Assembly: GCF_000161795.2 (NCBI RefSeq)
Contig: NZ_CP006882.1
Location: 806,001 to 870,000 of the forward strand
Direction: 5' to 3'
From: Synechococcus sp. WH 8109
GTDB taxonomy: Bacteria > Cyanobacteriota > Cyanobacteriia > PCC-6307 > Cyanobiaceae
DNA: 64,000 nt
A program made the translations under genes and the position numbers. Position 1 is the first letter of the stretch. Each line of letters starts with the position of its first letter. Shown here one piece after another: positions 7,648 to 38,226 of the stretch. The notes under the pieces were generated by a model. The model was not told the DNA's origin, ran no database searches, and saw only the letters and a list, made by a program, of their open reading frames with translations.

Positions 7648-7677
7648 GCCTCGAACTGACGCTTTGAGTAGGCGCCG

Positions 7678-7812
7678 GTAGGGTGGTGTGCTGGTTTCAG
7701 CGGGGAGCAGCCGCTGGAGGAAACGGGGAAAGAGCAGTGAAAATCTGCCGCTGTCCCGCAGCTGTGAAACGTCGGCCCTCCGCCTACGTCAGTCAGAACG
7801 CCCGCCAGATCA
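7678..7812 (+). promoter_or_regulatory. cobalamin (AdoCbl-type) riboswitch
   Basis: The leader of the hupE gene contains the cobalamin riboswitch core: the segment GTGAAAATCTGCCGCTGTCC at 7737-7756, followed by CGCAGCTGTGAAAC, and the B12 box AGTCAGAACGCCCGCC at 7791-7806, close to the consensus AGYCAGRARACCTGCC. It ends about 20 bases before the TTG start, so control at translation or early termination is plausible. Confidence 0.88.
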
Positions 7813-7831
7813 AACCGACGAGGATCGACTT

Positions 7832-10292: not shown

Positions 10293-11330
10293 TCAGGCAC
10301 TGACCTTGGAATTTCCCATGTTTTCAAGCGCTTCAGAAACACGCTTGAAGTTAAAGCCCATACCGCGTAAGGCATGCCAAAAATGTCCTTGAAGGAAAAA
10401 GAATGCAAGGTAGAAGTGCGTATTGGCCAGCCAAGCTCGGGCTGAGTGGTCACTACCTTCAAGAGCAGTTGTGTCGCTGAAGTAGGGAGAGAAGCCGAAG
10501 TTCAATTTCAATGGATCGCCATACAACTCAACGGGGTAAATTGTTGTGTTTTGAGCACACCAAATGGCGGTCACAAATCCCATCAGAGCTACACCAGCAA
10601 GCGAGTAAGACAGGATCGATTCGCCGTTGTAGATCAAGATCTTTTTGAAGGGTCCGAAAGGGCTGGAGATGATATGCCAAACACCACCAATCGTGAGAAT
10701 GAAAGCCAAAACAGCATGGCCACCCATCACGTCTTCAAGACTACTGATAGAGAGAAAATTAGCCTGATAACCCCACACCATGCTGAGGTCAATATTTGGT
10801 TCAACCCGTCGAACAGCTCCGATGGCGCTGTCGTAAATTCCATGGCGCTTTGCCCATTCAACGAAGGCAATGGCTCCGAGGCCAAGAAAAATCAGGTGAT
10901 GCCCCAGGATGAACGTGAGCTTTTTGCTATCACTCCATTCAAAGTGAAACTTTTGGGCGCGGCCTTCAGCTTCTGAAAGGTCCTTGGGCGCTCGAAGTGT
11001 ATGCCAGATTCCAGCTGCTCCAAGAACAGCGGATGAAACCAGATGGAATGCTGCGATCGCGATGAGGGGTTGTTGGTCAACGATTACAGAGCTTTCCCCT
11101 ACGCCGAAGCCAAGGCCGGCGAGATGTGGAATCAAAATCAGCCCTTGTTCTCCCATTGGCAGTGTTCCGTCATAACGGGCCAACTCAAACAAGGTGAATG
11201 CACCTGCCCAAAACATGATTAAACCTGCATGGGCAGCGTGGGCTGCAATGAAAGAACCGCTGCGCTTCGCGACTCCTGCATTTCCAGCCCACCAGTCATA
11301 ACTGACTGATGAACTTCCGTAAGACTGCAT
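10293..11330 (-). CDS. isiA: iron-stress chlorophyll-binding protein IsiA (CP43')
   Basis: 345 residues from ATG at 11330 (an in-frame TTG two codons earlier is less likely). The six-helix CP43-like core without the large lumenal loop identifies the IsiA/Pcb family: start MQSYG..YDWWAGNA, then FWAGAFTLFELARYD, MGEQGLILIPHLA, GHHLIFLG and SYSLAGVALMGFVTAIWCA. Histidines in helices bind chlorophyll a. IsiA forms antenna rings around photosystem I when iron is short. The nearby flavodoxin, ferredoxin, FutA and ferritin genes fit iron-stress use and favour IsiA over a constitutive Pcb. I found no clear Fur box immediately upstream. Confidence 0.9.
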   Translation of the reverse strand: MQSYGSSSVSYDWWAGNAGVAKRSGSFIAAHAAHAGLIMFWAGAFTLFELARYDGTLPMGEQGLILIPHLAGLGFGVGESSVIVDQQPLIAIAAFHLVSSAVLGAAGIWHTLRAPKDLSEAEGRAQKFHFEWSDSKKLTFILGHHLIFLGLGAIAFVEWAKRHGIYDSAIGAVRRVEPNIDLSMVWGYQANFLSISSLEDVMGGHAVLAFILTIGGVWHIISSPFGPFKKILIYNGESILSYSLAGVALMGFVTAIWCAQNTTIYPVELYGDPLKLNFGFSPYFSDTTALEGSDHSARAWLANTHFYLAFFFLQGHFWHALRGMGFNFKRVSEALENMGNSKVSA

Positions 11331-11903
11331 TTTCAAAAGGATGCGGCATGAAAAACATAATGAGTGCTGTCTATCGAATAAATCTGCTTTTACATAGCTT
11401 TGCAGGGGTAAGTCATATTTAACCGTTCAAAGAGTCATTTGATTTAAGAATTTTTTGTTCAATCTTTTGGGTAATTAATTTGGAACATTTGATTCTTTGG
11501 ATTGAAAGCTATGAGCTGCTTGATAAAAATTCTTTGCTCTGGCAAGCTGGCCAATTTGATGTCTGATTGCAGCCAATTGAGCGCAGAAGTTGTATCAAAT
11601 ATACCCGCCTAAGCAATGCAGTGCTCTCTAGATTGTGCTTGAGTTTGCATGATTTGCAGGTTTGGGCAAGACATGCTTCAGCTACACATCTCTAGTTCTT
11701 TAAAGATCTACTGTCAAAAAAAATCTACCTCCCGAAATTCCTAACGAGAAATAGATCACTTTGATTTTGTCGAAACCCGTCCAAGGTCGACAATTCAATT
11801 ATCCTGCTGTGTATTCCCTTGAGTGTTGGAAACTTAGCAAGCGAATGTTAGATCCTGAACATCTTTCAAGTCAAATGATCAAGGATCAGAGTGGCTGTCT
11901 TCC
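11331..11903. other. AT-rich intergenic region upstream of isiA
   Basis: About 570 bases with no convincing gene on either strand. It should hold the isiA promoter, and its right end is the 3' side of the leftward phosphatase gene. No palindrome matching a Fur box was seen. Confidence 0.5.
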
Positions 11904-15330: not shown

Positions 15331-15420
15331 AAGACAGAATCACCGCGTCGGGTGCACACCGCGATACAGATGAGGCGATAGCAGTGCCAAATGAGTCGTC
15401 ACAATGTTTTGGGAAGTCAA

Positions 15421-15518
15421 AACGCTGAACTGACTCCCCCGGTTGCGAAAGGGAGAGTCAGTACGGTTATCAGCGCCCAATGGTCATGCAGTTGCCATTG
15501 GATGGAGGTGAGCCTCCG
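15421..15518 (+). repeat. multi-hairpin element, copy G
   Basis: Outer stem GCTGA/TCAGC, inner stem GACTCCC with a shifted GGGAGAGTC partner, second hairpin CCAATGG/CCATTGG, third hairpin GGAGG/CCTCC. It begins the second ~560-bp duplicated unit. Confidence 0.77.
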
Positions 15519-15653
15519 AAACCACAATCTCACCGTCCATTGCTACTGACTGCTCTTAAGAGCGTTTGGCAGTGATCAAATGAGCCTCGCCAACGTCCAC
15601 AACTGTTCACAAGAACACTGGACGAGCTGCTGTCCCAGGTTGAGTTGGAGGGC

Positions 15654-15869
15654 CTAGAGCTTTATCCGGTTGTCCACCTGCAAAGGTGAATACAGCAAAA
15701 GGTTTCCGGCAACCAGCCCTGCTGTGCCGACAATCGCGGCGACCAATTCCAGCAACTCCGAGATTTTGTTTTGCGTGTTCAAGTCACCCGTCAAACGCTG
15801 AACTGACTCCCCGCTCGCCAGAGAGGGAGTCAGGTCGCTCCAGCGCCCAATGGCAAGGGTTAAAGCCAT
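15654..15869 (-). CDS. small membrane protein, paralogue 2
   Basis: Read from ATG at 15869 it has 71 residues; the part shared with paralogue 1 starts near 15818. A hydrophobic helix (LLELVAAIVGTAGLVAGNLL) is followed by SPLQVDNRIKL and a stop. A shorter form from TTG at 15794 (TGDLNTQNK) is possible. No known family; not a high-light-inducible protein, since the ExxNGR motif is absent. Confidence 0.42.
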   Translation of the reverse strand: MALTLAIGRWSDLTPSLASGESVQRLTGDLNTQNKISELLELVAAIVGTAGLVAGNLLLYSPLQVDNRIKL

Positions 15870-15893
15870 TGGATGGAGGTTTGGGGACTCCTT
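15793..15893 (+). repeat. multi-hairpin element, copy H
   Basis: Outer stem CGCTG/CAGCG, inner stem CTGACTCCC/GGGAGTCAG, second hairpin CCAATGGC/GCCATTGG (GGT/ACC in other copies has become GGC/GCC, a compensated change), then GGAG/CTCC. Confidence 0.77.
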
Positions 15894-15983
15894 AGACACA
15901 ATCACCCCTGTTGGGAATGAGACGCGATACAGATGAGTTGGTGGCAATGGCTAAATGAGTCACCCGAATGTTGTCGCAAGCCA

Positions 15984-16087
15984 AATCGCTGATCGAGCCC
16001 CCCGCTTGTGAAGAGCATTCAGACCCTGAACAAGCGCCCAACGGTCAATGGAGGAACCACTTAGTGGGGTACTCGAGGTTCCGTGAC
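15984..16087 (+). repeat. multi-hairpin element, copy I
   Basis: Last and more diverged copy of the array: CGCT/AGCG outer stem, GAGCC left arm, then the conserved GCGCCCAACGGT segment and a GAGGAACC/GGTTCC hairpin. Confidence 0.6.
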
Positions 16088-16609
16088 AATGATTTCACTT
16101 GTGATTGGCTGATCGCTGTGTTGATGAGGAGATGATGGCGACCCTCTGAGAGGTGGCAAGGTAGCGGTTGGTGACACCACCCACCCCTCTTTTCTGAGGG
16201 CAATTCAGTAGTGGTTATGGGTTGGTTCGTTGATGGGATTGACCAGTGTGCTGTTCATACACCTGATGACTCTCGAATAGCCAAGAGGTGGCTCTCCTTC
16301 GTGGACCCCAGCAGCATCAGCCGTTCCTTGACTTGCTTTTATCTGTACCGTCCAAATGCTGAGCTTTTTCCCATTGCAGCAGCCGGGGGAGGCTGATCAC
16401 AACAAAAGCTGCGTTCCTTGTGTTTTGATAAGGAAATACAGCGGAAACGCTCAATAAGAACGCCTCAGCGTTGTAAGCGATCCATTGGTCACTCAGTTAG
16501 CGAGGTGTACTGGGCCATATCCACATCGAGCCGATGCTTCGAATTCAGGGCGATGCTCAGCTGCTCCGCTCACTTCTTCTGAGTACGGATGGAGTTGGCC
16601 TGCAGCGTA
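16088..16609. other. intergenic region between hairpin array and Crp gene
   Basis: About 520 bases without a convincing gene. A 61-codon rightward frame at 16211-16396 exists but has no ribosome binding site and no recognisable content. Confidence 0.45.
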
Positions 16610-16695
16610 TTGAGAAAGAATCTCAATTTGAGGGTCTTATTGAGAATGACTTGCAATATCGACAAGGAGTCTGTACTGTTGCGAGTAATTCTCAA
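16610..16695 (+). promoter_or_regulatory. three Fur-box-like operators and promoter of the Crp gene
   Basis: Three 17-base sites match the pattern TTGAGA-N5-TCTCAA: TTGAGAAAGAATCTCAA (16610-16626, both arms perfect), TTGAGAATGACTTGCAA (16640-16656) and TTGCGAGTAATTCTCAA (16679-16695, one arm mismatch). A sigma-70-like promoter fits between them: -35 TTGCAA at 16651-16656, 17-base spacer, -10 TACTGT at 16674-16679. Sites 2 and 3 would therefore cover the promoter, the usual layout for iron-dependent repression by Fur. Confidence 0.68.
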
Positions 16696-16707
16696 TCGCG
16701 ATAGTTC

Positions 16708-17310
16708 GTGACGACGTCTGCCTACCGTTTCTTGCCGGATGATCCAGCGGCACCTTTGTCGATGCCAAGGCTTCAAACCGTTCTGCTGGACCCTGCCGGT
16801 CGAGACCAGGCCACCGTTCTGGAAGTGTTGGAGGGTGTCTGCCGGGTGTATTGCCCTTGTGAGGAAACCGAGGGAATGACCTTGGCGTTTTTGCAGTCAG
16901 GCGACAGGCTTCGCACTGATCGCATGTGCAGTGACGGGGCCTGTGTTGAGGCACTCACGGCGCTTAAGTTTCGTCGTGATTCCGTCTCCACGGACGAATT
17001 CGGCATTGACGCAGTCAATGAGTGGACCTTGCAGCTCCTAAGAGTCCGTCATTTGGGTCAGGCTGAACAGCGGCTTCACGCTCTTCTGGCCCTCCTGGTC
17101 AACCGGCTTGGACTTCGTTGCAGCGATGCCTATCAGCTTCCCTTCCGTCTTACCCATGATCGTTTTGGTGAGTTGATTGGTGCTACCCGGGTGACGACAA
17201 CCCGTCTTCTCTCGAAATGGCGTCAAGCCGACATGATCGCCATGTCGTCTGGTGATGTCACGATGCGTATTGCACCTGACCTCATCAACTCTTCACCACT
17301 CCAATTTTGA
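16708..17310 (+). CDS. Crp/Fnr family transcriptional regulator
   Basis: 200 residues from GTG: a short cyclic-nucleotide-binding-like domain (about 20-95) lacking clear cAMP-binding residues, a dimer helix (about 100-135) and a C-terminal winged helix (LTHDRFGELIGATRVTTTRL, about 150-170). This shape is common for iron- or nitrogen-related regulators in picocyanobacteria. The leader is about 20 bases without a good ribosome site. Fur-box-like operators sit on its promoter, so it is probably made in iron shortage and may control the neighbouring island genes. Confidence 0.85.
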   Translation: MTTSAYRFLPDDPAAPLSMPRLQTVLLDPAGRDQATVLEVLEGVCRVYCPCEETEGMTLAFLQSGDRLRTDRMCSDGACVEALTALKFRRDSVSTDEFGIDAVNEWTLQLLRVRHLGQAEQRLHALLALLVNRLGLRCSDAYQLPFRLTHDRFGELIGATRVTTTRLLSKWRQADMIAMSSGDVTMRIAPDLINSSPLQF

Positions 17311-17597: not shown

Positions 17598-17899
17598 ACT
17601 GATTCTCTAGTGTTTCTAGGCTGCCTTAACGGTTGTCCAATAGAATATTTATTGCCTAGAGTGTACGTAGTTTGGAAAGTTTTTTGTCATTCATTGTTGC
17701 GTATCTTTTGATGATCTTGTTGATTTGTTAGCTTTCTTCTCAAAAAGAATCGAATGAGGATTTCTTTTGATGAATTTTCCGAGAGTGTATCATTTTTGCT
17801 TTTATTTGCTTTAATGCAGTCTTGCTTAAGATCGAGTCAAAAGAATCATTTGACTGATCGCCGTTCAAAATATTATTTAAAGTTTGGCATTGGTCTTCA

Positions 17900-18064: not shown

Positions 18065-18191
18065 ATAAGAATTTGTCTGGCAGAACGAGGTGGATGAGGT
18101 GTCTGGATGTAACTGATTTCACCTGCAGTTGAAACAAGCGTTAATTCGGGAGAGCGATGATTTGCGATTCTTGATTGGTGATTTCTTTTGC

Positions 18192-18701
18192 ATGACTTTC
18201 ACTATTTTTTTTGCCACATCTACTGGTAAAACTGAGGATGTGGCTGATCGACTCAAGGAGCTTCTTCCTGGAACAGAAGCGAAGGATGTTGACAACATCG
18301 ACTCAATTGATGAGTTGGTTGCAGCTGAGTCGTTAATTTGTTGTGTTCCAACCTGGAATACAGGCGCTGATGAAGCACGGTCAGGAACAGCCTGGGATGA
18401 TCTGGTTCAGGAAATTCCTGACAAGGATTTTGCCGGTAAATCAGTCGCAATCGTAGGCCTTGGTGACTCCTCCGGTTATTCGGATTTTTTCTGTGATGCC
18501 ATGGAGGAACTGTATACGGCTTTTCTTCAATCTGGTGCCAAGTTGATTGGTAAGGTTTCCACAGAAGGGTATACCTATGATGACTCAAAGAGCATTATTG
18601 ATGGTAAGTTCTGCGGACTTGCAATCGATGAAGACAATGAGTCTGAATTGACAGATCAACGTTTGCAGGCCTGGGTTCAGCAAATAAACGCTGAGGCCTG
18701 A
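18192..18701 (+). CDS. isiB: flavodoxin (long-chain)
   Basis: 169 residues from ATG at 18192, the usual long-chain flavodoxin length. The phosphate-binding loop ATSTGKTEDVAD (about 8-19) is followed by the FMN-stacking loop PTWNTGADEAR (about 54-64) and the GLGDSSGYSDFFCDAM segment (about 94-109). Flavodoxin replaces ferredoxin as electron carrier after photosystem I when iron is limiting. The open frame extends upstream but lacks family sequence there. Confidence 0.95.
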   Translation: MTFTIFFATSTGKTEDVADRLKELLPGTEAKDVDNIDSIDELVAAESLICCVPTWNTGADEARSGTAWDDLVQEIPDKDFAGKSVAIVGLGDSSGYSDFFCDAMEELYTAFLQSGAKLIGKVSTEGYTYDDSKSIIDGKFCGLAIDEDNESELTDQRLQAWVQQINAEA

Positions 18702-21551: not shown

Positions 21552-22136
21552 TTAACCCTGAAGAGATGCAGGTTTGTTATTTCCTTGGTCTAGCTCGTTG
21601 TCGATGAGCAATAAAGCCGCTGCTTGATTATCTGCAAACTTCACCCGTCCAAGAAGGTGCGCAAATTCGTGTTCTGACTGGGTTTGCATTTCCACCATCG
21701 GGTCGAGAAACACCGTGGTACGCGTATCGCTCACTCTCTCTGCCATTGAATACAGCTGTTGCAACGAAGCTGTGACGTCAACCTCCATTTGAAATGCGGT
21801 TGCCATCACATCTACAGGGGATGCCCAGTTCTGCAAGGGAGCATCGACCACTTGTAGTGCAACGCTTTGCCCTCGAGCAATGATGTATTCCGCGAATTTT
21901 GCAGCATGCTCATGCTCGCTGTTGGATTCGTCTCGGAAGAATCGGGAAAATCCCCTCAACTCTCGTTCGGCAAACCAGATTGCTGCAGCGAAATAAGAGG
22001 CATGGGCTTGCCTCTCCATGTTGAGGTGGGCTTGGATCGCGCTTAGAAGATCAGAGTCAATCGCTTCTGCAATTGCACGACCTGATGGTCCGCAAGCGAT
22101 AGATGAAGCGGAGATCGAATTGTTTGTGCTCAGCAT
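21552..22136 (-). CDS. ferritin
   Basis: 194 residues, four-helix ferritin. Ferroxidase-site residues are visible in NMERQAHASY (Glu), SNSEHEHAAKFAEYI (ExxH) and MQTQSEHEFAHLL. It lacks the methionine haem ligand pattern of bacterioferritin and is longer than Dps. It stores iron as ferric mineral and protects from Fe(II)/oxygen chemistry. A Fur/Zur-type palindrome lies about 80 bases upstream of the start. Confidence 0.93.
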   Translation of the reverse strand: MLSTNNSISASSIACGPSGRAIAEAIDSDLLSAIQAHLNMERQAHASYFAAAIWFAERELRGFSRFFRDESNSEHEHAAKFAEYIIARGQSVALQVVDAPLQNWASPVDVMATAFQMEVDVTASLQQLYSMAERVSDTRTTVFLDPMVEMQTQSEHEFAHLLGRVKFADNQAAALLLIDNELDQGNNKPASLQG

Positions 22137-22215
22137 TTTTTACTTGTTGATGTCCAAATGATACGCATATGCAAGTCAAATTGCTCGCAAGGTGTGTTAT
22201 TTGCACCAAGTTAAA

Positions 22216-22230
22216 TGAGAGTCATTATCA
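22216..22230 (-). promoter_or_regulatory. Fur/Zur-type box upstream of ferritin
   Basis: TGAGAGTCATTATCA matches the 7-1-7 pattern TGATAATNATTATCA at 12 of 14 defined positions. It lies 80 bases upstream of the leftward ferritin start and 50 bases after the futA stop. Which of Fur, Zur or PerR binds cannot be told from sequence. Confidence 0.5.
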
Positions 22231-22280
22231 AAAGCATCTGAAATCTTGAATTTTTTCGGTCGTTTGTTGAGTTCTTTGGT

Positions 22281-23285
22281 TTAACGCCATCCAGCATCTG
22301 CCATCACTTTGATTGCGGTTTTCTGAGTTGCGCCTAAAGCACTAATAGAAACATTGTCTGGGGTAAATTTTCCAAATGCTTTTAATTCTTTCGATGTACC
22401 AAGATTTTTCAGTGGATATTCGAAGGTTGGGCCTGCAATGAGTCGACTACCTTTTGGTGACGAAATGAACTCAATAAATTGGATCGCCTCTGTTTTATTT
22501 TTGGCCGACTTTGCGACTCCTGCGGCACTTATGTTCACATGGGCTGGATTTGGCATAACTAATTTAATGTTCGATGTTACTTTCTGATCGTTCTTTCCGC
22601 TCGCACCTGCCTGCATTCGTGCTAGATAATAATGATTGACAAGTCCAACACCACATTTGCCTTGTCCAACCGCACGAATTAGTGATACATCACCACCGAA
22701 ATACGGCTGGCTTACATTATCGACCATCCCTTCAACCCAAGCCGAAGCAGCAGTTTGACCATTCATTATGATTTGGTCGGCTACAAGTGACTGGCTGTAG
22801 ACGTTTTTCCTTTTACGCAGACAGAGTTTTCCTTTAAGAACTGGATTTGCAAGATCGGAATAGGTCTTAATCGTATTTGGATTAACGATATTGGGATTTA
22901 CAATGATCGATCTTACGCGCCTCGTGAAACCAAACCATCGATTTGATGGATCCCGATAGCGTGAAGGAACATTCGACTGGAGTTCCTGCGAGGACACGGG
23001 CTGCAGAAGACCAGCTTCTGCAGCATTGTTTATCCTCGCTGCATCAACCAAAATGATCACATCAGCTTTTGAATTTTCTCCCTCTCGTTTTAGACGTTCA
23101 ACTAGCGATATCCCTGTGGCCTCAATAAGTCTTACTTTGATTCCAGTTTCTTCACTGAATTGTTTGTAGGCAGCACGATCAGTGTTGTAATGCCGGCCTG
23201 AGTACACCCTTACTTCCTTTGCCTCCACTGAAGGCAGGACAGCAATTGTTGCCACCATACCCATCGCTGCAAAGAACCTACACAT
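22281..23285 (-). CDS. futA: iron(III) ABC transporter substrate-binding protein (FutA/IdiA type)
   Basis: 334 residues from ATG at 23285, which gives a proper signal peptide (MCRFFAAMGMVATIAVLPSVEAKE). The mature start EVRVYSGRHYNTDRAAY is typical of FutA/FbpA proteins, with His/Tyr metal ligands (GRHYNTD; VNHYYLARM later). It binds ferric iron in the periplasm. The FutB/FutC permease and ATPase genes are not next to it. An in-frame start 78 bases upstream is unlikely. Confidence 0.92.
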   Translation of the reverse strand: MCRFFAAMGMVATIAVLPSVEAKEVRVYSGRHYNTDRAAYKQFSEETGIKVRLIEATGISLVERLKREGENSKADVIILVDAARINNAAEAGLLQPVSSQELQSNVPSRYRDPSNRWFGFTRRVRSIIVNPNIVNPNTIKTYSDLANPVLKGKLCLRKRKNVYSQSLVADQIIMNGQTAASAWVEGMVDNVSQPYFGGDVSLIRAVGQGKCGVGLVNHYYLARMQAGASGKNDQKVTSNIKLVMPNPAHVNISAAGVAKSAKNKTEAIQFIEFISSPKGSRLIAGPTFEYPLKNLGTSKELKAFGKFTPDNVSISALGATQKTAIKVMADAGWR

Positions 23286-23400
23286 GCTTCTAGATATAAT
23301 TCCTCTTATATTACTCCAGTGACTCCAGTCTTCATCTGCTTTTGACGTACCATTCTGTAGCATTTGGTGAAGGCTTTTTGTTCTTGAAATTCCCTGATCG

Positions 23401-26373: not shown

Positions 26374-26949
26374 TCAATCTACAGGCAAAATTATCTGTCC
26401 TTTTAGTTCATCAATATAAATTTGTTGGGACTTCCTTAGATTGCTAATAGTCCTGGATACGGTTGATCTCGTGGATCCAACGATTTCAGCAATGCGTGCA
26501 TGAGACAATGTGTGCTCCAGTAGTAGGCCTTCTGATGTTCTTTTTCCTAGTCTTGTCATTAGTAATCTAAAAAATTTAATCAGTCGGTTTTCTAGATTTT
26601 TCTCGTGCCTCATGATGTGAAGTTGAATGATCCAGTTCATGATTGTATCGCTGGTGTCGGATTCTGTCTTGCTTATTGATCCAACCGTATATGTTGTGTC
26701 TGTTATGGCTTCTATAAAGAGTTCTAGGTTTTCTGGATAGTGGAATCTGCAAATATCCGCTCTGCATGTAAAAGCTAAAGTTATGTCTTCTGCGTTCTTG
26801 GATTGGTTGGCCGCAATCCTTATTACGCCACTCTTTACCGTTATTTCTATATCTTCTCCGGTTTGAGTTCTTTCTAGTGAAATTCTTTCAGACGAATTCA
26901 GGGATATTGGTCTCCTTGCCTTGTCTCGATGGTGGCGTTCAGTCGTCAT
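26374..26949 (-). CDS. Crp/Fnr family transcriptional regulator, second copy
   Basis: 191 residues from ATG at 26949 (a GTG at 26979 is possible). The N-terminal sensor domain is diverged; a long dimer helix region (NWIIQLHIMRHEKNLENRL) precedes the winged helix TLSHARIAEIVGSTRSTVSR. It is only distantly similar to the Crp protein at 16708. It stands next to the porin and could regulate it. Confidence 0.83.
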   Translation of the reverse strand: MTTERHHRDKARRPISLNSSERISLERTQTGEDIEITVKSGVIRIAANQSKNAEDITLAFTCRADICRFHYPENLELFIEAITDTTYTVGSISKTESDTSDTIMNWIIQLHIMRHEKNLENRLIKFFRLLMTRLGKRTSEGLLLEHTLSHARIAEIVGSTRSTVSRTISNLRKSQQIYIDELKGQIILPVD

Positions 26950-27054
26950 TGACGCGTTAGCTTGTTCTTTTTGATACACCGGTTTGTGCTCAATTTTTCT
27001 ATTGGGCTTTCTGGGCTATGTATTAACAGGGATTCGGTATCTCAGGCGTATTTA

Positions 27055-27201: not shown

Positions 27202-27522
27202 CATTCTGGAGTGATTCCATGTGCTCTTCAGTTAGGGCTTGCGCTGCCTGGTCGTGGCCTATGAGTGAAAGGTGGGATGCACGTCGGTAGCACCATGTAT
27301 TGATTTCTCGCAGCGTCTTGCTTCTGAGGTGATAATTTTTGTTCATTTGCTTTGGGTGCTGCTCTCGCTATTTTTCTGCTTCCTGATTGCTACGTGGCGG
27401 AATTAATTGCTTTTGTTTGTGCTATTTGGTATGTTGCGCTGTGATTGTTGACCTTTCTCTTACTATTCTTCTTTATTGTTGTTGCCGGAAGTGGCTCTTT
27501 GCTCATGAATCGCTGAGTGTTG

Positions 27523-27537
27523 TGAGAATTATTATCA
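27523..27537 (+). promoter_or_regulatory. Zur/Fur-type box upstream of metallothionein
   Basis: TGAGAATTATTATCA matches TGATAATNATTATCA at 13 of 14 defined positions. It lies 90 bases upstream of the metallothionein start. Zur has been reported to activate a metallothionein gene in marine Synechococcus, so activation as well as repression should be considered. Confidence 0.62.
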
Positions 27538-27626
27538 ATCTTTCCGCATGAATTGTGTGTGGAGATGGTGTGTTTGTTCTGTGGGCATCTTTTTCGGCCC
27601 ATACAACAGTGAGTTGATTTGTTGTG

Positions 27627-27797
27627 ATGGCTGCCGCTGCGCCCTGTGCCTGTCCGCGTTGTACCTGTGAGGTGCAATCGTCCCAAGCCCTTGTTCGTGA
27701 TGGCCAGAGTTTCTGTTCAGATGCCTGTGCCACCGGTCATCCCAACCATGAGCCCTGTCATGGCAGTGGCTCCTGCGGCTGCGCCTGCGCGGAGTGA
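27627..27797 (+). CDS. smtA: bacterial metallothionein (SmtA/BmtA)
   Basis: 56 residues, the same length as SmtA of freshwater Synechococcus. Cysteines are arranged CACPRCTC near the start, FCSDAC in the middle and SCGCAC at the end, with histidines in TGHPNHEPCH. This is the zinc-finger-containing bacterial metallothionein fold (GATA/YCSxAC element), which holds about four Zn ions. A Zur/Fur-type box is upstream. A longer frame overlapping it is a shadow. Confidence 0.93.
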   Translation: MAAAAPCACPRCTCEVQSSQALVRDGQSFCSDACATGHPNHEPCHGSGSCGCACAE

Positions 27798-37523: not shown

Positions 37524-38226
37524 TTGCTTGTTTGTTGCATCTTAAAGCTTTAAATATCGCAAATAGGTAATTATATTTCTTTCACGATTTGGTCGTCAGG
37601 GCCTTATCAAATTGATTGATGCGAAGAGCTACGGCCGGCGTTTTCGAGCAGCTCCCTCTGCCGCGATGGCTGACCTTCAACCAAGCTGCGACTTAACGAT
37701 GTGGAGCCACGGAACCGCGAGGAGAAACAGGTTCTCCCCGAGCGATGCGGATTCCGCATCAATACGTTCGCCACGTCACATTGATTTGCGCCTGATGCAC
37801 TGAATGTCTAAAGCTTTCAGGCCTTTGAGGCACAAAAAAGTTTCCCCGCTGATCGCTCTCAATGGGGAAACTCTTCTGCCAGCACCAGGGTCGCTCTCCC
37901 CGTGCTGCTCAGCACCACATCTGGTGTGCAGGCAACTGAGGGTTCAATGATGAGGCCAATCAGCAGGCTTGTCTGGGAATTTCTGAAGATGTGCTGATCC
38001 GCCAAAAATTTCGGTAGATGCGGGCGACGGTTGCGACTGATACGGACGACCTAAATGCTCGATAGGCCTCGGAAGAACGCCTGGATTCGCTATGCAAACG
38101 GACCCAGCAGTTGCCGCTGAAATGGGTCCGCGTCCCGGGCTAGGTGCATGAGACCAGGACGCATCACACATAAGCCATTGGAGCCAGTCGATTCAGCGAA
38201 ATCCGCTACTCAAATGGCTCCATTCT
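37524..38226. other. long intergenic region with leftward terminator
   Basis: About 700 bases without a convincing gene. At 37834-37871 a GTTTCCCC/GGGGAAAC hairpin is followed, on the leftward strand, by six T, so a leftward transcript should end here; its source between 37.9 and 38.2 kb is not evident. Confidence 0.5.

Follow-up and report, generated by a model that had tools for sequence, protein, structure and literature searches.

Prochlorococcus and Synechococcus account for a large share of ocean photosynthesis and are iron-limited in large regions. In Pseudomonas, Fur represses a regulator, PvdS, that switches on iron genes. Proteins of the Crp family recognize even palindromes, and the canonical NtcA box is TGTA-N8-TACA. 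DNase footprints of Anabaena FurA gave the consensus AAATAAATTCTCAATAAAT, with the core ATTCTCAATA, at iron genes that carry several boxes per promoter and with a 7-1-7 reading of the box (PMC4005646). The SynZur regulon of marine Synechococcus consists of eight genes around znuABC and bmtA, with Fur-family palindromes lying over promoter elements and two boxes at bmtA (PMC9337993). In Prochlorococcus MED4 and MIT9313, idiA (futA) and isiB are reported to be iron-responsive (cited in PMC3598940).

Here we analyzed a 64-kb stretch of the Synechococcus sp. WH 8109 genome (the window), in which three Fur-type palindromes precede a gene for a Crp-type regulator that we call CrpF.

16610 to 16626, unstranded: Fur box 1, TTGAGAAAGAATCTCAA, a perfect 6-5-6 palindrome with 12 of 12 arm matches
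16640 to 16656, unstranded: Fur box 2, TTGAGAATGACTTGCAA, 10 of 12 arm matches, its right arm TTGCAA forming the predicted -35
16679 to 16695, unstranded: Fur box 3, TTGCGAGTAATTCTCAA, 11 of 12 arm matches, over the -10 end and the predicted transcription start
16651 to 16679, plus strand: predicted promoter TTGCAA-N17-TACTGT, from the sequence and the conserved layout
16708 to 17310, plus strand: crpF, Crp-type regulator of 200 amino acids, with an NtcA-like helix-turn-helix and invariant C49, C51, C74 and C79

A sequence-only reading of this DNA had placed three palindromes at 16610, 16640 and 16679, with 12, about 10 and 11 of 12 arm matches, and we recovered exactly these positions and counts. 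The window holds five TTGAGA-N5-TCTCAA sites at up to two mismatches, three of them within the 86 bp of the crpF operator, and none of 60 Markov shuffles (mean 2.7 sites per shuffle) had three sites inside 100 bp. Allowing up to two mismatches, pattern-based scans of the whole 2.11-Mb genome gave 57 sites versus 25 for a control with the pattern reversed. A site without mismatches occurs once, and this is box 1. The same reading had set box 2 on the -35 and box 3 on the stretch directly following the -10. This promoter placement (TTGCAA at 16651-16656, 17 bp, TACTGT at 16674-16679) is plausible and its layout is conserved across loci, although the promoter scores below threshold in a sigma-70 consensus scan. 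By eye, the non-coding DNA 5′ of crpF (window 15400-16100) also contains repeated stretches (cgctgaactgactcccc ... cgcccaatgg ... attggatggaggt).

CrpF relatives of at least 60% identity are found in Prochlorococcus, Synechococcus, Cyanobium and Vulcanococcus, and their genes nearly always neighbor ferritin, isiA-like, isiB or futA genes. We compared the operator at 110 homologous loci (97 distinct promoters), many of which are closely related. Box 2 is recognizable at all 110, and box 3 lies 38-40 bp from it, typically 39 bp, at 97; among the compared loci, some Prochlorococcus groups, L070 and L075 for example, have no box 3. Box 1 is retained as its right half (TYKCAA, at -18 to -20 from box 2) at about 81/110 loci, whereas the full palindrome does not extend beyond the clade of the window and a handful of Prochlorococcus. 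Information content per column is about 1.6-2.0 bits in the arms overall (~1.9 in box 2, 1.6-1.7 in box 3), 0.6-1.1 bits in the box centers, 0.4 in the spacer and 0.08 far upstream. In close relatives the center of box 1 varies (AAGAA, AAAGA, AAAGG) with both arms constant. Because the arms are nearly invariant, the spacing is rigid and the centers drift across crpF loci, this three-box element, conserved across ocean and freshwater picocyanobacteria, is, judging from the alignment, a protein operator and no chance match. Unlike the Anabaena FurA promoters, it combines a pair of boxes at a constant 39 bp with, in most cases, a half or full third box upstream. It has stayed on a single regulator gene throughout picocyanobacteria, and in high-GC lineages its arms read TTGCGA/TCGCAA.

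At three loci (L169-L171, in G174, G203 and G147), two Fur-like boxes mark a second promoter, which precedes a conserved short ORF of about 46 amino acids; in L169 the spacing of the boxes is 39 bp. No counterpart to this promoter was found in the window's genome. An sRNA gene was considered at this promoter and rejected, with no Rfam match and a fold that is not unusual (z 0.59); the conserved short ORF fits better.

That crpF encodes a Crp-type regulator, as the sequence-only reading had it, was borne out by an HTH_Crp_2 domain (36.9 bits) and by the beta-roll fold of the structure model (pLDDT 84), whose best PDB matches are NtcA. By sequence and by model fold, NtcA is the closest solved relative; NtcA, and PtrA by profile match, share with CrpF the Crp fold, a short chain and a nearly identical recognition helix (GATRVTTTR in CrpF, family type GSTRVTxTR), from which a CrpF site of the form GTA-N8-TAC is expected. 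However, CrpF falls far below the NtcA and PtrA equivalog cut-offs (34.3 vs 244.95 and 38.6 vs 300 bits, respectively), with the HTH alone matching, and differs from both in its linkage to iron genes and in four cysteines of the sensor half, C49, C51, C74 and C79, which are invariant in 95/95 distinct homologues and spaced unlike those of FNR. The cysteine block, CPCEETEGMTLAFLQ..DQLRTD.LCS.G.CVEA, could hold a metal or an iron-sulphur cluster, or act as a redox switch. We found no earlier description of CrpF in the open-access literature searched. A second Crp-type gene in the island (26374-26979, minus strand) is about 30% identical to CrpF and has a C-x4-C at the matching part of the sensor half.

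Genomes with and without CrpF provide a natural experiment in which iron regulation is directly testable; the gene compared between them was futA.

22281 to 23363, minus strand: futA/idiA, ferric-iron binding protein, without a Fur box, its start codon probably further in
23356 to 23371, unstranded: candidate CrpF site TGTAGCATTTGGTGAA, between futA and piuC

A Fur-motif matrix was trained on crpF promoters only and then applied to futA promoters. It found a Fur-type motif in none of the 25 orthologous futA promoters of CrpF-positive genomes (best score 3.1), whereas all five from CrpF-less genomes contained one (scores 11.2-19.7). Two of the CrpF-less genomes (G024 and G044) have the same two-box layout at exactly 39 bp in the fut promoter, with fur within about 3 kb. 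Two CrpF-positive genomes (G181 and G147) have a second, distant-type futA, and both of these copies carry the Fur motif. The contrast is confounded, because in the CrpF-less genomes futA is always of the distant type (44-51% identity), and an exchanged fut operon may contribute to it alongside rewiring. In CrpF-containing genomes futA appears to sit one step below Fur rather than directly under it; the literature we found offers no explanation for how futA is switched on without a recognizable Fur box in these genomes. The iron response in MED4 and MIT9313 fits such indirect control, with no Fur box at futA in their relatives.

We scanned the futA promoters for CRP-like palindromes with a symmetrised matrix built from ferritin sites. 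At p<=0.05, such a palindrome was present in 22/25 CrpF-positive promoters (~1.3 expected) and in 1/5 CrpF-less promoters, where it overlaps the Fur-type site. Freshwater relatives have strong palindromes such as TGTGACATTTGTCACA and CGTAGCAATTGCTACG roughly 50-90 bp 5′ of the futA start codon, a position that would suit activation. Ferritin carries related sites.

21552 to 22136, minus strand: ftn, ferritin, predicted to be a CrpF target and preceded by a Fur-type box of its own
22215 to 22231, unstranded: Fur/Zur-type box ATGAGAGTCATTATCAA 5′ of ftn
22150 to 22165, minus strand: candidate CrpF site CGTATCATTTGGACAT 5′ of ftn, a weak form of the conserved ftn site

In relatives, sites resembling TGTATCATTTGTTACA occur in the promoters of ferritin genes. 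A perfect TGTA-N8-TACA is found in 8/61 of them compared with 0.5 in shuffles, and 42/61 lie above the 95% shuffle level (3.1 expected), with a matrix that was itself fitted on ferritin. Ferritin, unnamed in the sequence-only reading, is the most consistent partner. Most marine lineages also have a Fur-type box of their own at ferritin, and direct Fur control there may add a second input. In four genomes of genus g5 without a clear CrpF (L146-L149), ferritin lacks a Fur-type box; with an identity of about 50%, these ferritins are possibly not orthologues.

The sequence-only reading had proposed that the regulator could drive island genes without their own Fur boxes, namely isiA, flavodoxin and futA, and that a common site be sought upstream of them.

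18129 to 18701, plus strand: isiB, flavodoxin
17842 to 17857, plus strand: candidate CrpF site AGAATCATTTGACTGA, weak, ahead of a small ORF and isiB
10293 to 11336, minus strand: isiA, CP43-like chlorophyll protein
11431 to 11446 and 11481 to 11496, minus strand: two candidate CrpF sites, weak, 5′ of isiA

For futA, and also for ferritin, this proposal is well supported by the conserved NtcA-like palindrome. The candidate sites at isiA and isiB in the window are weak, and these two genes are leads only as potential CrpF targets. The window has 8 CRP-like sites versus a shuffle mean of 3.65 and maximum of 10, an enrichment that is not significant for the island in one genome, and the pattern was not enriched across the whole of this genome (146 vs 140 for the control). 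The earlier observation holds, and more strongly than the sequence alone could show. Its interpretation is partly supported: it is largely correct on Fur control and on futA, isiA and isiB are unproven, and ferritin was missed. Within isiA and antisense to it lies an IsrR RNA (Rfam RF01419, 10766-10937, plus strand; 58.5 bits, above the gathering score).

The observations as a whole are best explained by a circuit in which the tandem Fur operator represses crpF and CrpF then acts on futA and ferritin, to which we assign a probability of roughly 0.75. The computation itself shows the boxes and how well they are conserved, a Fur motif that changes place between crpF and futA, a CrpF-like palindrome in common, and a helix like that of NtcA. 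When iron is sufficient, Fe-loaded Fur dimers would sit on box 2 (-35) and box 3 (-10 end and start), helped by box 1, and this occupancy would keep crpF off. In iron shortage Fur would leave the operator and CrpF would be made; CrpF would then bind an even palindrome near TGTATCA-N2-TGATACA at the futA and ferritin promoters, and perhaps at isiB and isiA as well. From promoter comparison, the order Fur, CrpF, futA/ferritin is well supported, and within it Fur binding probably represses crpF, and CrpF probably binds its own palindrome and acts as an activator. As in the Pseudomonas cascade, Fur would stand over a second regulator of iron genes; the differences are that this tier is a Crp-type protein and no sigma factor, and that related CrpF-less genomes bear the Fur motif directly on futA. 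The proposed circuit consists of specific named sites and a previously uncharacterised regulator family.

The form of the boxes bears on which protein would bind them. They are odd palindromes in the Fur-family 7-1-7 register TGA..AAT-N-ATT..TCA, with T-7, G-6 and A-3 conserved about a single central base. Box 2 with its flank contains TATTGAGAAT, whose opposite strand reads the FurA core ATTCTCAATA, and this 10-mer is found in 82 of the 97 distinct crpF promoters; within the window, the 9-mer ATTCTCAAT is confined to the crpF operator and the whole 19-mer consensus is matched at 13/19 positions at most. Since this register and consensus match are joined by the same motif on the iron-uptake gene futA, in all five CrpF-less genomes and on both second copies, Fur is the best candidate binder, probably in preference to other Fur-family proteins. 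The earlier proposal of Fur control over a second-tier regulator gains from the same points, from the deep conservation of the operator, and from the recurrence of the motif on futA where the regulator is absent, twice as a 39-bp pair. One could imagine instead that CrpF itself binds TTGMGA-N5-TCKCAA and that the boxes are an autoregulatory operator, as the motif travels with crpF, is found too at the neighboring ferritin gene, and crpF and the adjoining ferritin are mostly gained or lost jointly. However, the motif also lies on futA in the five CrpF-less genomes, so it must be more than a CrpF site, and on this ground we rejected autoregulation through the boxes; moreover, the boxes are odd where Crp-family sites are even, and the recognition helix predicts GTA-N8-TAC. 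We consider this explanation highly improbable. Somewhat less remote, yet still improbable, is binding by another Fur-family protein, be it Zur or a third, PerR-like paralogue. Fur-family genes number two or three in each of the genomes examined, and similar-looking Zur-type boxes are present in the same genome (znuA/znuC at C1:802821, bmtA at 27522). Zur boxes, though, retain an inner AATNATT that is free in the crpF and futA boxes, and the conserved Zur center NTNANAATGATNATCATTNTNAN was not found in the variable centers of the crpF boxes. Furthermore, the direct targets found are iron genes, with fur nearby in G024 and G044, the FurA 10-mer is matched, and the published SynZur regulon is limited to genes around znuABC and bmtA (PMC9337993). 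Zur was set aside as the binder: the best canonical TGAKAATNATTMTCA boxes of this genome are mostly Zur-type (znuA/znuC, bmtA and possibly also a P-loop protein gene at 504188) and differ in their center from the crpF boxes.

A further alternative accepts that Fur represses crpF and assigns futA and ferritin to NtcA or another Crp-type protein acting through TGTA-N8-TACA, with the CrpF targets elsewhere. The perfect form of the palindrome is indeed the canonical NtcA box, NtcA-type HTH matches occur in CrpF-less genomes too, and the island holds its second Crp-type gene. Nevertheless, this alternative is unlikely, given that just one CrpF-less futA promoter reached p<=0.05, and there over a Fur-type site, that variants from freshwater genomes, among them TGTGACATTTGTCACA, do not resemble NtcA sites, and that CrpF nearly always adjoins ferritin, isiA or futA.

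Building on the circuit in which CrpF acts on futA and ferritin, CrpF may, by way of its four invariant cysteines, be an iron, iron-sulphur or redox sensor, such that Fur would set its amount and the cluster state would decide whether it acts on flavodoxin, futA and ferritin; with the rise of the two-tier circuit, the Fur operator would have moved from the fut operon to crpF. We regard this extension as possible, if rather doubtful. If true, picocyanobacteria would read iron twice.

Other elements were detected in the window. A Cyano-2 RNA (37702-37909, minus strand; 171.8 bits) and a cobalamin riboswitch (7675-7823, plus strand; 49.1 bits) both score above their gathering scores. A bmtA-like, cysteine-rich metallothionein ORF of 57 amino acids (27624-27797, plus strand) has the Zur-type box GTGAGAATTATTATCAA about 90 bp 5′ of it (27522-27538), and this box, together with that of znuC/znuA at C1:802821, agrees with the SynZur regulon.
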